DNA of 64,000 bases from Mogibacterium sp. Its GTDB lineage: Bacteria > Bacillota > Clostridia > Peptostreptococcales > Anaerovoracaceae. This document shows, piece after piece, positions 51,448 to 59,127 of this stretch. Position 1 is the first letter of the stretch. Each line of letters starts with the position of its first letter. The notes beneath the pieces were generated by a model that was given only the letters and a program-made list of their open reading frames with translations, had not been told where the DNA came from and searched no databases. The DNA is taken from NCBI GenBank assembly GCA_017434025.1, contig JAFRGC010000013.1:46411-110410 (forward strand), given 5' to 3'. The translations under genes and the position numbers were made by a program.

Positions 51448-52269
51448 CTATCTTTCGTATTCTCTGAATGCTTCCTGACCCGCATACTTGAAGTATGCAA
51501 ATCCTTCATTGATCATAAGCTCATAGAACACGGTTCTTCCAAGGCAGATATACCCATGCGCAGCGAAAACCGGCAGTTCTGCCAGCATACTGATGATCAG
51601 AAGGCCTGCAACAGGCAGCTTCATACCGGCAATCAGTCCTGAGATGAGAAACGCCGGCATATAACCGAACAGCAGATAAGGCAGATAGTACAGCAGCAAT
51701 CTTAAATACGTTAATCTGTTGCCCTGCATCAGCATTTTGCTCTCGGCAAGCACCTGCGTAACGCCCTTATCCGGATCATCGGCAAGCACATAATATGCCT
51801 GGGAAAAATTGAGAGCCACTACGATACCCGGTATCACGAAGAAAATCGACCAGAAAGCTACGATGAGAAGCTGAAGGATATATATGCCGAGTGTCTTGAG
51901 ATACAGCGGCGCTCCTTCCGTCAGAGCTTTATATTCTACTTTCCTGTTCCTGATATAAGTCAGAGCATACAGAGCTTCTCCCAGATTGACTACACCGCTG
52001 AAGAATAATGCGTAGACATATATGACAAGCGGTGTCCCGTTGAGTCTGCTGAGCATCTGCTCATCAACACCCGGAAGTGCAGCCATGAGATCAAGATTCG
52101 TCGCAGGGAAATACAGACTGAGGATCTCAGGGATCCAGTTGAGGAAAGCATAGAGCATACAAATCCCGGCAAGGAAACTCACAAGAGTTCCCTTGCTGTG
52201 GCTTTTGCATTTGGACATGATCCGCAGCGGATGTTCTTTGATGATGTAGTACTGTCTTCCCTCGGGCAT
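51448..52269 (-). CDS. DUF975-family integral membrane protein
   Basis: 273 residues with about five hydrophobic segments. The DUF975 hallmark is the VALNFSQAYYVLADDPDKGVTQVLAESKMLMQGNRLTYLRL region (shown here as consecutive landmarks FSQAYYVLADDPDKG and ESKMLMQGNR). Function unknown. It starts 4 bases after the pheT stop and ends at the bidirectional terminator, so it is the last gene of the pheST unit. Confidence 0.85.
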   Translation of the reverse strand: MPEGRQYYIIKEHPLRIMSKCKSHSKGTLVSFLAGICMLYAFLNWIPEILSLYFPATNLDLMAALPGVDEQMLSRLNGTPLVIYVYALFFSGVVNLGEALYALTYIRNRKVEYKALTEGAPLYLKTLGIYILQLLIVAFWSIFFVIPGIVVALNFSQAYYVLADDPDKGVTQVLAESKMLMQGNRLTYLRLLLYYLPYLLFGYMPAFLISGLIAGMKLPVAGLLIISMLAELPVFAAHGYICLGRTVFYELMINEGFAYFKYAGQEAFREYER

Positions 52270-55775: not shown

Positions 55776-56867
55776 CTACACCATGCCTCTGCCGGTATAC
55801 ACTTTGGCTTTTTCCTTGCCTCTCAGTACCCTCAGTGCCCCAGCAGCCATAGCTTCCTGTTCGACTTCATTCTCGTATATATATATCGGAGCGATCCAGC
55901 CCACATAGTCTTTGATGTAGTCCATCAGTGACTGGAACCTAGTGTATCTGCCTGTGATTATGATACCGTCCAGCTGTCCCTTGAGGACAACGGCCATCGA
56001 TCCGATGTATTTGACTATATTATATCCAAGAGCTTCCCACACGAGCGCGGCTTCTGCGTCTCCGGCCTGAACTCTGCGGTATATCTCATCAGCATCAGAA
56101 GTGCCGAAGTGTGAGACGAATCCTCCTGTACCTGTACATAGGTGGCGCATTTCTTTGACTGTATGAGTCTTGAAATAATCAAGTACGCCCATCAGCGGAA
56201 GCGATCCTGTCCTGGTTGCGGTAAAAGGTCCTTCACCGCCTGCGCCTTCGTTGCAGTCGACCTGCCTTCCGTGATCGTGCGCAGCTATTGTGATGCCTCC
56301 ATCGATATGCGCGACGACCCATCTGGTCTGCTTGTAATCGATCCCGTTCAGTTTGCAGTGTTTCATCACCGTTCCGCGAAGATTGAGCGCGTGTGACTCC
56401 GCTTTTCTCGCAATCTCTTTGACACCGGTGATCCTTGCAACATCGGTATATTCATCTACACAGATCGGGTCTACCATGAACAGCCTGCCGCCGTATTCAT
56501 CCTGAAGGCTCTTAGCAAGCTGAACGCCCAGAACGGAAGGATGGATCGTACGGCCGACGTTATTGCGGATATCTTCAAGCAGCAGATCGTTGACTTCGAA
56601 CGTACCGGAAGGTACCGGCCAGCATCCGCCGCCCCTGCCGACAAAAGCATCAACATCAGAGAGATCTATATCATTATTGTTGATAAAATCCTTGATCACT
56701 CCCATCCTGTAACCGAACTGATCGTTTACAGATGAAAATGAGTTGAGTACCTGTGCGTCATGTGTCACTGATGTCTGAAGGATCTTGCGGTTGTCGTGAA
56801 ACAACGCGAGCTTGGTCGAAGTTGACCCTGGATTGATGACGAATACTTTGAATCTGTAATCTTTCAT
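55776..56867 (-). CDS. buk: Butyrate kinase family protein
   Basis: 363 residues, acetokinase/ASKHA fold. FVINPGSTSTKLALFHD, GRGGGCWPVPSGTFEVND, HPSVLGVQLAKSL, VAHIDGGITIAAHDHGRQVDCNEG and GEGPFTATRTGSLPL are butyrate-kinase positions. It interconverts butyryl phosphate and ATP/butyrate; branched-chain acids are also possible. ATG 56865-56867 is taken, 12 bases after GAAGGG; an ATG four codons earlier sits directly on that SD. No phosphotransbutyrylase gene is nearby. An intrinsic-terminator-like hairpin sits just upstream. Confidence 0.9.
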   Translation of the reverse strand: MKDYRFKVFVINPGSTSTKLALFHDNRKILQTSVTHDAQVLNSFSSVNDQFGYRMGVIKDFINNNDIDLSDVDAFVGRGGGCWPVPSGTFEVNDLLLEDIRNNVGRTIHPSVLGVQLAKSLQDEYGGRLFMVDPICVDEYTDVARITGVKEIARKAESHALNLRGTVMKHCKLNGIDYKQTRWVVAHIDGGITIAAHDHGRQVDCNEGAGGEGPFTATRTGSLPLMGVLDYFKTHTVKEMRHLCTGTGGFVSHFGTSDADEIYRRVQAGDAEAALVWEALGYNIVKYIGSMAVVLKGQLDGIIITGRYTRFQSLMDYIKDYVGWIAPIYIYENEVEQEAMAAGALRVLRGKEKAKVYTGRGMV

Positions 56868-56884
56868 GATATCGATCATCCCTT

Positions 56885-56925
56885 CAAAAAATCGATCAGT
56901 GGCCGGATCTTCGGAGCCACTGATC
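56885..56925 (-). terminator. Intrinsic terminator in the buk leader
   Basis: GATCAGTGGC / GCCACTGATC form a perfect 10-bp stem (56894-56903 with 56916-56925) followed on the minus strand by GATTTTTT. The T-run ends 18 bases before the buk ATG, leaving no space for another promoter in between, so buk depends on read-through or on regulated antitermination. Confidence 0.8.
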
Positions 56926-56962
56926 ATTTAATGGATATACAGCTTAGCTCCTGTCTTACGCA

Positions 56963-58765
56963 TCAGAAGAATAGTCCTCCGATCTCACTAAAGACAGGAA
57001 GAAATGCAGCAGTCAGGACTACCATAAGCTTGATGAGTGATCCAAGCGAGCGTACCGCTGTTCTGCCGAAATGCTCTCCTGAATCGCATATTGCAGGCAT
57101 GATCATGCAGCCTGTAATAACGGTACCAATAAGGAATCCAAGAGTACATTCTACTCCGAGGAACAGTGCAACAAGCGCCGGAAGGACAATTACGATGGCA
57201 ACAGGAAGCACGGACCATCTTAATGATCTGGCTGAACCTGTATCCTCGCCCCTTCCGAGCTTGCTGAATGCTACAAGAGCTGTAGTCCTAACCGAATATA
57301 TCACAATACCCGTCAGCACAAACGGAACAGCAGCTCCGCCGAATAAAGCACCTATGAAAGCAGAATGAAGCAAGTCGATCTGCTCAACGCCTGAATTATA
57401 GAATACTGCTGTCAGCAAAGCTATCAGAGTCAATGCTGAAGCATAATTCGTGTAAGTCCATGCTGCAGGTGCTGTTCTGACAGAAACAGTATCCATATAA
57501 TCAGCAATAGCTTCGGTATCAGCGCCTTCTCCGTGAGCTCTGATCGCTTCCCCGGCGGAACCGGAGACCTGCGAGAGCCCATTAGCCGCGGCCAGCGTCC
57601 CGGTAACTGAGCAGAATCCGACAGCAGCGAGAGCTATGCCGTAAACCGATGAGAATTTGGCCGCAAAGAAAATGCAGATAAGAACGATCGCAGTCTGTAA
57701 TACTGTTGAGATCATTCCACGTGACAATCCTGATATAAGCGGCATATGAGAATTGAGCCTTCTGTCCTCTTTGGTTCCAGACATCATGAAACGGCTGTCA
57801 TACGAATATATTCTCGATATCTCTCCGAGAATGAGTCCGCCGGCTATACCGCAAACTGCAGAAATGCCGTATACAGCAGACTCCAGATAATAATTACTGA
57901 AATAGATAGCAGCCGCAGCGGTCAATAAACCTGAAACTATAGCCGCAACCGATACGGATCTCGAATTATTCACTCCGGAAGTGCCTCTATAGAGCATTAC
58001 TCCTATAAGTGATGCAACAATGCCGGCAGCAAGCAGGATCAAAGGATACTTTGTTACTGATGACAGATTGAATGTTGACATTACTCCGGATGAATCGAGA
58101 CCGTTCTGTGCCATCATGATCGCTGCCGCACCTGCAAGGACATATGATTCCATCATGTCCGCACCTGTGCCGGAAAAAGATCCTGTTATATCAGTGAAAT
58201 CATCATCCGGGAGCGCCAGAGAATATGCATCAGAATAAACCGTTCCTCCGGTGCTGAGATGAACCGCGGTTGTTGATACTCCCAGAGCAAGACATGTGAT
58301 TGTCTCTATTACATTTTCGACTTTGAAGAAAACGAACATAGCACCAAGCAGAAAAAGGCCTGCAGCAGAAATGACTGCTCCCATAACTGCACCTGTTCTG
58401 TATGATGCTTTGAGTGCTCCTGCGTAATCGCCTTCAGCTGCCATGCCTGAAGCAGCAGTAGTGCCAGCAGGAATTGCACCGGTACCTGCCATTACTGCAC
58501 CAAAACATACCACTGTGCCTGCGATATAGACCGCGGCATTGATCCATCCTGAACCAATACCGAGTGCGATCGCAATGATCACAGCAGTTATTAATATCGG
58601 CATGTATTGAAATCTACGAAAACTTGTATTCCTCTTGCCAGTGATGCCGAGTATCCTGACGGCAAGGTCACCGCGTCCTCTCCTGCTCATGAGCCAGGAC
58701 TGGTCTATAACAGCGGTGAGCACTGCAACAAGAACACAGATAATTGTTAGTATCCTTAGCAGCAT
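56963..58765 (-). CDS. Degenerate homologue of membrane-bound H+/Na+-translocating pyrophosphatase
   Basis: 600 residues (active family members about 660-720), about 14-16 hydrophobic helices. Clear collinear homology: ALGVSTTAVHLSTGG, GTGADMMESYVLAG (family GADLFESY), ISGLSRGMISTVLQ (family ISGLAVGMEST), YGIALAAVGFCSVTG, and SLIKLMVVL at the end (family ILIKLM). Yet the PPi/Mg motifs are gone: GGGIxTKAADVGADLVGK is STGGTVYSDAYSL, DNVGDNVGD is TDITGSFSG, DNAGGIAEM is SGSAGEAIR, and the last GGAWDNAKK to DPFKDTSGPSLN block is reduced to ICDSGEHFGRTAVRS. Pyrophosphatase activity is therefore very unlikely. It follows secG by 23 bases. Confidence 0.85.
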   Translation of the reverse strand: MLLRILTIICVLVAVLTAVIDQSWLMSRRGRGDLAVRILGITGKRNTSFRRFQYMPILITAVIIAIALGIGSGWINAAVYIAGTVVCFGAVMAGTGAIPAGTTAASGMAAEGDYAGALKASYRTGAVMGAVISAAGLFLLGAMFVFFKVENVIETITCLALGVSTTAVHLSTGGTVYSDAYSLALPDDDFTDITGSFSGTGADMMESYVLAGAAAIMMAQNGLDSSGVMSTFNLSSVTKYPLILLAAGIVASLIGVMLYRGTSGVNNSRSVSVAAIVSGLLTAAAAIYFSNYYLESAVYGISAVCGIAGGLILGEISRIYSYDSRFMMSGTKEDRRLNSHMPLISGLSRGMISTVLQTAIVLICIFFAAKFSSVYGIALAAVGFCSVTGTLAAANGLSQVSGSAGEAIRAHGEGADTEAIADYMDTVSVRTAPAAWTYTNYASALTLIALLTAVFYNSGVEQIDLLHSAFIGALFGGAAVPFVLTGIVIYSVRTTALVAFSKLGRGEDTGSARSLRWSVLPVAIVIVLPALVALFLGVECTLGFLIGTVITGCMIMPAICDSGEHFGRTAVRSLGSLIKLMVVLTAAFLPVFSEIGGLFF

Positions 58766-59042: not shown

Positions 59043-59092
59043 AAAAAGATATAAAGTGCCCGATTCTGATCATCTCAAAATCGAACACTTTA
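59043..59092 (-). terminator. Terminator between tpiA and secG
   Basis: A 14-bp stem (59052-59065 with 59079-59092, two G-U pairs) is followed on the minus strand by TATCTTTTTAC. It separates the glycolytic genes from the secG group. Confidence 0.75.
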
Positions 59093-59127
59093 TAATAACA
59101 TTGATTGGATATTGTGTCAACGAATGA

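Follow-up and report, generated by a model that had tools for sequence, protein, structure and literature searches.

The described proteins closest to the one studied here are the K+-dependent Na+-translocating pyrophosphatases, represented by that of Thermotoga maritima (TmPPase, 4av3; PF03030), and the H+-pyrophosphatase of Vigna radiata (4a01). Membrane pyrophosphatases are homodimers in which closure of loop 5-6 is needed for directional pumping, according to an excerpt of PMC5150537, and an excerpt of PMC10897367 gives the ion gate as D6.50, E6.53/57, S6.54 and D/N16.46 together with K16.50. How hydrolysis is coupled to ion movement is debated, with pumping placed either before or together with hydrolysis (excerpts of PMC10897367 and PMC9408878). 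We found no described non-catalytic form of these enzymes in the open-access literature, in searches that were partly broad and that left most subscription papers outside; an earlier note on this DNA had likewise known of no described function for such a form.

The window, a stretch of 64,000 nucleotides from a Mogibacterium sp. genome (G000), encodes a protein of this kind. We call dead form a non-catalytic membrane-pyrophosphatase homologue that has lost hydrolytic residues, and g1 the genus of the window protein, which consists of Mogibacterium-like gut MAGs of the Anaerovoracaceae. The window protein shares common descent with TmPPase and has D6.50, E6.53, S6.54 and K16.50 in common with it; unlike TmPPase, it lacks loops 5-6 and 15-16 as well as the majority of the hydrolytic residues, and it has not kept 16.46. 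Its residues 104-563 are homologous to the Vigna enzyme (phmmer), from which it differs in carrying the gate glutamate at 6.53 rather than 6.57 and in the absence of the hydrolytic residues and loops. With its intact relatives in the family it shares the hydropathy pattern and the secG-linked locus. Pseudoenzymes are dead relatives of enzymes that are kept for other roles. The window protein resembles them in having lost catalysis while remaining under selection and apparently keeping its fold; unlike pseudoenzymes in general, the loss in the dead forms appears several times at one chromosomal locus.

Homology and genomic context

The window protein matches the Pfam H_PPase model PF03030 at 145.1 bits (E 4e-42), against a gathering cut-off of 29.7. 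With all 11 matching NCBIfam pyrophosphatase models it scores far under the curated cut-offs, the equivalog cut-off for sodium-translocating pyrophosphatase included (best 164.7 versus 546 bits). When a profile of 30 dead-form sequences was aligned with 14 intact homologues, the alignment ran end to end over 597 columns (E 6.7e-77). Dead and intact forms show 13 hydropathy segments in corresponding order, which speaks to the question of the 16-helix fold at the level of hydropathy only. No other family passed its cut-off for the window protein in Pfam or NCBIfam; two weak hits fell short of theirs, one to a holin (E 0.0036), the other to subunit C of a cation/H+ antiporter (E 0.0073). The Pfam score and the aligned length bear out the earlier note, which had seen a full-length pyrophosphatase homologue and had proposed the H_PPase search. 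Judged on these alignments, descent places the protein in the membrane pyrophosphatase superfamily (PF03030); as read from its residues, it is not a membrane pyrophosphatase (EC 7.1.3.1) on the catalytic features that define one.

Table 1. Features of the locus and of the encoded protein, in positions of the window.
Feature	Position	Strand	Basis
Non-catalytic membrane-pyrophosphatase homologue, 600 aa, ATG start	56963..58765, stop included	-	ORF, Pfam, profile alignment
secG, 23 bp upstream of the homologue's start codon	58789..59022	-	NCBIfam, neighbour loci
Butyrate kinase gene (buk), downstream; first in-frame ATG 35 bp past the stop of the homologue	55776..56927	-	NCBIfam
Loop 5-6 junction, ~20 aa of intact pumps (PPi/Mg block 1) gone, between residues 183/184	58216..58217	-	Alignment
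D192 codon (Vigna D283, 6.39), block 2; invariant in 30/30 A2 sequences	58190..58192	-	Alignment A2
D203 codon, gate D6.50 (Vigna D294)	58157..58159	-	Alignment; gate per excerpt of PMC10897367
E206 and S207 codons, gate E6.53 and S6.54	58145..58150	-	Alignment; gate per excerpt of PMC10897367
Third-loop junction, ~19 aa gone, between residues 508/509	57241..57242	-	Profile-profile alignment
Loop 15-16 junction, 33 aa (last PPi/Mg block) gone, between residues 568/569	57061..57062	-	Alignment
K579 codon, gate K16.50 (Vigna K742)	57029..57031	-	Alignment; gate per excerpt of PMC10897367

The start of secG was set at the ATG of MHTALM, which we infer to be the true start; the listed frame opens at 59088. 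The gene order in the window is gap-pgk-tpiA-secG-dead form-buk-pheS-pheT, where the identities of gap, pgk, tpiA and pheT are presumed from sequence. Neighbourhoods were compared in 31 of the 40 other g1 genomes with a dead form, and the remaining nine were judged from search rows alone. secG directly precedes the dead form in all 30 g1 neighbour loci with upstream DNA, and buk follows it in 28 of the 30 with downstream DNA; it is absent beside the dead form in G019 and G043. The gap between tpiA and secG (59050-59120, minus strand) holds a near-consensus extended -10 promoter (TTGACA, 17 nt, TATTAT) that overlaps a 20-pair hairpin with a T run, and hairpins of the GTTCG type lie 5' of secG in some of 14 relatives (L036, L037, L040, L042, L043 and L046), not in all. 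On the 3' side of pheT (51448-52269, minus strand) is the gene of an apparently membrane-bound protein of 273 aa without any NCBIfam match, which has counterparts in g1 relatives at 37-62% identity.

Loss of the hydrolytic centre

The window protein is 71 residues shorter than its intact relative in G005 (671 aa), and the difference lies chiefly in three loops (Table 1; the profile-profile alignment places the loop 5-6 junction one residue later). We take loops 5-6 and 15-16 to be the carriers of the PPi and Mg ligands. Of 15 Asp, Lys and Asn positions (Vigna numbering) taken as the hydrolytic set, the window protein keeps two, the equivalents of D279 and D283, and the other 13 are substituted or deleted. 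The full-length intact pumps of g1 and of g16 that we tabulated have 15 of 15. Each of 32 tabulated g1 dead forms has between one and four, a count in which the match at D691 seen in some of them is possibly an alignment effect next to the deletion. D253 and D257 are kept in none of the 32, nor are D723 and D727, and D6.43 is kept in one of 31. Retained D192 stands in a stretch that reads FTDYTG in the majority of A2 sequences, and in the majority of g1 sequences the canonical acids at Vigna 423, 500 and 607 have given way to Arg or Lys.

This listing of residues had been suggested in the earlier note, together with the caution that the acids of the active site might be found at shifted positions. 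Such a shift was looked for and is rejected: the loops that bear most of these acids are absent, and the mean number of Asp plus Glu per protein falls from 51 in 19 intact proteins to 32 in 27 dead ones. Where the note described four catalytic blocks as replaced, the loss of the PPi site stands, whereas two of the blocks (loops 5-6 and 15-16) proved to be deleted outright, the third loop is missing as well, and block 2 retains D192. From the residues that are left, the window protein would be unable to bind Mg-PPi in the known way.

Partial retention of the ion gate

Four of the five gate positions are kept in the window protein (D203, E206, S207 and K579), and position 16.46 is Gly. Among dead forms, D6.50 is Asp or Glu in 32 of 32 from g1 and Asp in 5/5 from g16, 2/2 from g27 and 1/1 from g81. 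K16.50 is present in 27/31, 5/5 and 2/2 dead forms of g1, g16 and g27, respectively, and is Arg in g81. Ser or Thr occupies 6.54 in 28 of 32 g1 dead forms and E6.53 is present in 23 of 32, while N or D at 16.46 occurs in only 5 of 31. In g16, E6.53 is found in none of five, three of which have Asp. Eight of the 30 A2 sequences have lost E6.53, and four of these (G021, G054, G042 and G043) have lost K16.50 too. Because of these losses in A2 and in g16, a gate of the known chemistry would not be essential everywhere. We also ranked the 1540 triples that can be drawn from the 22 charged, undeleted columns showing no variation among 39 intact pumps: only nine are kept as well as D6.50/E6.53/K16.50, which is a ranking and not a probability since the sequences are related.

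Distribution and origin at the secG locus

A search of close relatives, as the earlier note had advised, found the dead form in 41 of the 47 g1 genomes. The genus profile gave matches above 400 bits in 39 of them, 35 with frames of 598-621 aa; the remaining four comprise the frame-broken G007 and three genomes, G001, G048 and G053, in which a contig end truncates the gene. More divergent dead forms in G040 (607 aa) and G013 (503 aa) complete the 41. In G005 and G062 the secG slot is taken by an intact pump and there is no dead form, G011 has only a second-type intact pump, and the intact-type gene of G050 is interrupted by N and was left out of the alignments, as its frame passes through a stretch of N. 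No match was found in G020 (59% complete) or G041. Sequencing or assembly error was considered and rejected, as 39 of the 47 genomes have the same form. Among the best 80 loci from the contig search, 8 held a dead form and 70 an intact-like one, and 2 were cut or interrupted. Outside g1, the genus profile found nothing above 400 bits in samples of 393 order and 391 class genomes, with the best three candidates per genome considered; the forms of g16, g27 and g81 came from PF03030 scans or from lower-scoring rows of the genus profile.

This slot behind secG is filled by an intact pump not only in the two sister species (G005 and G062) but also in further genera of the family and, beyond it, in two more families of the order. 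Linkage to secG is common, not universal: with dead forms included, secG is adjacent in 35 of the 74 named loci with upstream DNA and not in 39. Comparison of these loci indicates that the adjacency is older than the loss of the hydrolytic centre. Since G005 and G062 carry an intact pump in this slot, the g1 dead form is the orthologue of that Na+/H+-pumping enzyme, changed in situ.

The other groups carry different lesions. In g16, dead forms of 552-614 aa occur in 5 of the 15 genomes scanned (G123, G210, G293, G364 and G379); their deletion is larger and takes away the beginning of helix 6 too. Here secG adjoins the four with upstream DNA, and the contig of G364 ends before it. The g27 form (G353 and G175) is full-length and keeps 9 of the 15 positions, having lost D6.39, D6.43, D507, N534 and D691. 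The g81 form (G397) has 650 aa and 3 of 15 positions, with an intact pump elsewhere in the genome. Single or double losses are found in g37 (G305 and G245), where each genome also has an intact-scoring second copy. Two g37 pumps (L084 and L087) lack D691, which is Lys or Asn there, and are otherwise nearly intact; these are perhaps early steps of the same loss.

In the best tree, the g1 dead set lies beside the g1 intact pumps and the g16 dead set among the g16 intact pumps, with the dead forms of g27 and g81 placed elsewhere and poorly resolved; the program gave a warning of long branches that come together within the g16 set. A single origin of all dead forms is disfavoured by this tree, although one clade survives the AU test (p 0.186 for g1 and g16; 0.067 for all dead forms). 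Because of the best tree, the different lesions and the intact genes in the same slot of the sister species, independent loss of catalysis in several lineages at one locus is likely, not proven.

Possible functions

A new membrane job for the dead form is probable from its conserved features. We propose, with a probability of roughly 0.4, that it provides an uncoupled, gated pathway for a cation (Na+ or H+), with the funnel open and a soluble enzyme handling PPi. In g1 the hydrolytic centre is gone, as is the lid loop that would shut over it, while the core in the membrane and the larger part of the gate have been kept under purifying selection. On the proposal made here, the cytoplasmic end of the emptied funnel would stand open, with the D6.50/E6.53/K16.50 cluster still controlling the passage of cations. 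A soluble family II enzyme would take care of PPi, joined in most genomes by a second intact pump. With loop 5-6 closure absent, a pump is unlikely and a conduit possible; with the ligands gone as well, the dead form should not act as a pump of the known kind. Among the roles that the earlier note had offered, the ion channel or carrier is the one that the retained gate would favour. The wider proposal, that membrane pyrophosphatases at a single locus have repeatedly become gated cation channels free of hydrolysis, by shedding the catalytic half with its lids and keeping the gate half, and so form a natural class in which pumping is separated from hydrolysis, is put forward tentatively, as a possibility that may well not hold.

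Several findings count against a cation pathway. The Na+ site of the Tm type is incomplete (N or D at 16.46 in 5/31 g1 dead forms; Gly in the window protein), and a simple Na+ channel fits poorly both with this and with the four sequences that lack E6.53 and K16.50 alike. Buried charges must balance, and D6.50 and K16.50 could have persisted for that reason only. The soluble enzyme does not explain G353, because that genome has no match to the DHHA2 domain (see below). Natural proteins without the hydrolytic half, with the gate mostly kept under selection, would allow the ion pathway to be studied alone, and they would be a case of a primary pump turned to another role.

Next after the cation pathway we rank a scaffold or other structural role in the membrane, with no transport, in which the protein serves as a platform for Sec, an operon enzyme or another partner, with the gate charges as buried salt bridges. 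All four A2 sequences without K16.50 are also without E6.53, as expected of a structural ion pair, and 18 of the 31 best-kept columns among those invariant in intact pumps are glycines. Against this, D6.50 persists in lineages with unlike lesions, and adjacency to secG is shared by intact pumps, so that it shows no new partnership; buk does not always adjoin. The suggestion in the earlier note of a partnership with secG or buk loses ground for these last two reasons, and we regard a scaffold role as unlikely.

Somewhat less likely still is a repurposed carrier or sensor, in which another small solute would occupy the emptied funnel and be coupled to an ion through the gate region. New consensus residues near the old site, the invariant D192 and the Arg or Lys at 423, 500 and 607, would suit such a role. 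However, g1 sequences diverge among themselves to ~30% identity, no substrate motif stands out, and neither the holin nor the antiporter subunit C match passes its cut-off.

Selection and divergence

Slow decay, with the gene caught at an intermediate stage, would account for several features. Across 28 pairs from eight genomes, the dead form shows 2.8-9.4 times the non-synonymous divergence seen in the intact second pump, the g16 dead forms lie on very long branches (dN/dS covers g1 only), and shorter frames occur in G013 (503 aa), G364 (564 aa, near a contig end) and G379 (552 aa). There is also a frame break near the N-terminus in G007, the one exception noted. Against decay, omega (dN/dS) is 0.045-0.174 in 24 of the 25 closest g1 pairs, with 0.395 in the distant pair G000-G001, and in the 28 pairs it is 0.045-0.100 in 27 and not computable in one. 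The values for the closest pairs come from 30 stop-to-stop frames, in which internal stops are absent by construction and frame length is the informative figure, and G007 entered from codon 46 on only. Frames of 598-621 aa in 35 of the 39 strongly matching genomes, with three others cut by contig ends, point the same way. The form is also old, given that the window protein is 26-43% identical to its g1 counterparts; the neighbouring genes are mostly 70-95% identical.

On this pattern of substitution the dead form evolves fast yet under clear constraint, and decay, improbable overall, is already hard to hold for g1. The dN/dS analysis that the earlier note had called for thus upholds its view of a gene under selection and not in plain decay; as for the stops and frameshifts in relatives that would have spoken against the note, frames are mostly full-length and G007 is broken.

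Intact pumps and soluble pyrophosphatase in the same genomes

The least probable reading is a non-hydrolysing subunit that heterodimerises with an intact membrane pyrophosphatase and regulates it: known enzymes are homodimeric (excerpt of PMC5150537) and 36 of the 41 dead-form g1 genomes also have an intact-type match elsewhere, two of them with broken frames (G012, with a TGA inside, and G060, split over two frames), but intact pumps were not found in 5 of 41 g1 genomes, 5 of 5 in g16 or G353, incomplete MAGs in which incompleteness could explain some of the absences. The same counts answer the question in the earlier note of whether a normal hppA exists in these genomes and weaken its idea of a regulator of an active enzyme. 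The five g1 genomes are G054 (96% complete), G061 (93%), G059 (82%), G001 (74%) and G010 (71%); those of g16 are 99, 97, 92, 91 and 86% complete, and G353, with a dead form of the g27 type, is 90% complete. The other g27 genome, G175, has an intact pump. An obligate partner of the intact pump is unlikely because in 11 genomes a dead form was found but an intact pump was not. These 11 are among 205 family genomes scanned with PF03030 (53 + 72 + 80), which are not necessarily all of the family and exclude 19 that were negative with the genus profile. A Pfam H_PPase match or an hppA label therefore need not mean a pyrophosphate pump.

DHHA2, a match to which would mark the domain of a soluble family II pyrophosphatase, was found in 32 of the 36 genomes tested, including all ten g1 and g16 genomes with a dead form only, and not in G353.

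The clear intact pump of the window's genome lies on contig C51. A second piece of an intact pump in G000 (L055, on the 3.3-kb contig C72) groups with g16, nearest to G252 at 86% DNA identity, and was rejected as a type-A second pump of this genome; C72 may be a contaminant contig or a transfer. In G043 and G042, an intact type-A pump (L091 and L092) sits away from the secG slot and does not group with the g1 intact pumps, and here a transfer is possible. In the pump of G242 (L083, 5815-7905), four residues of the block 2 repeat DNVGDNVGD are missing, either a real deletion or a collapsed repeat.
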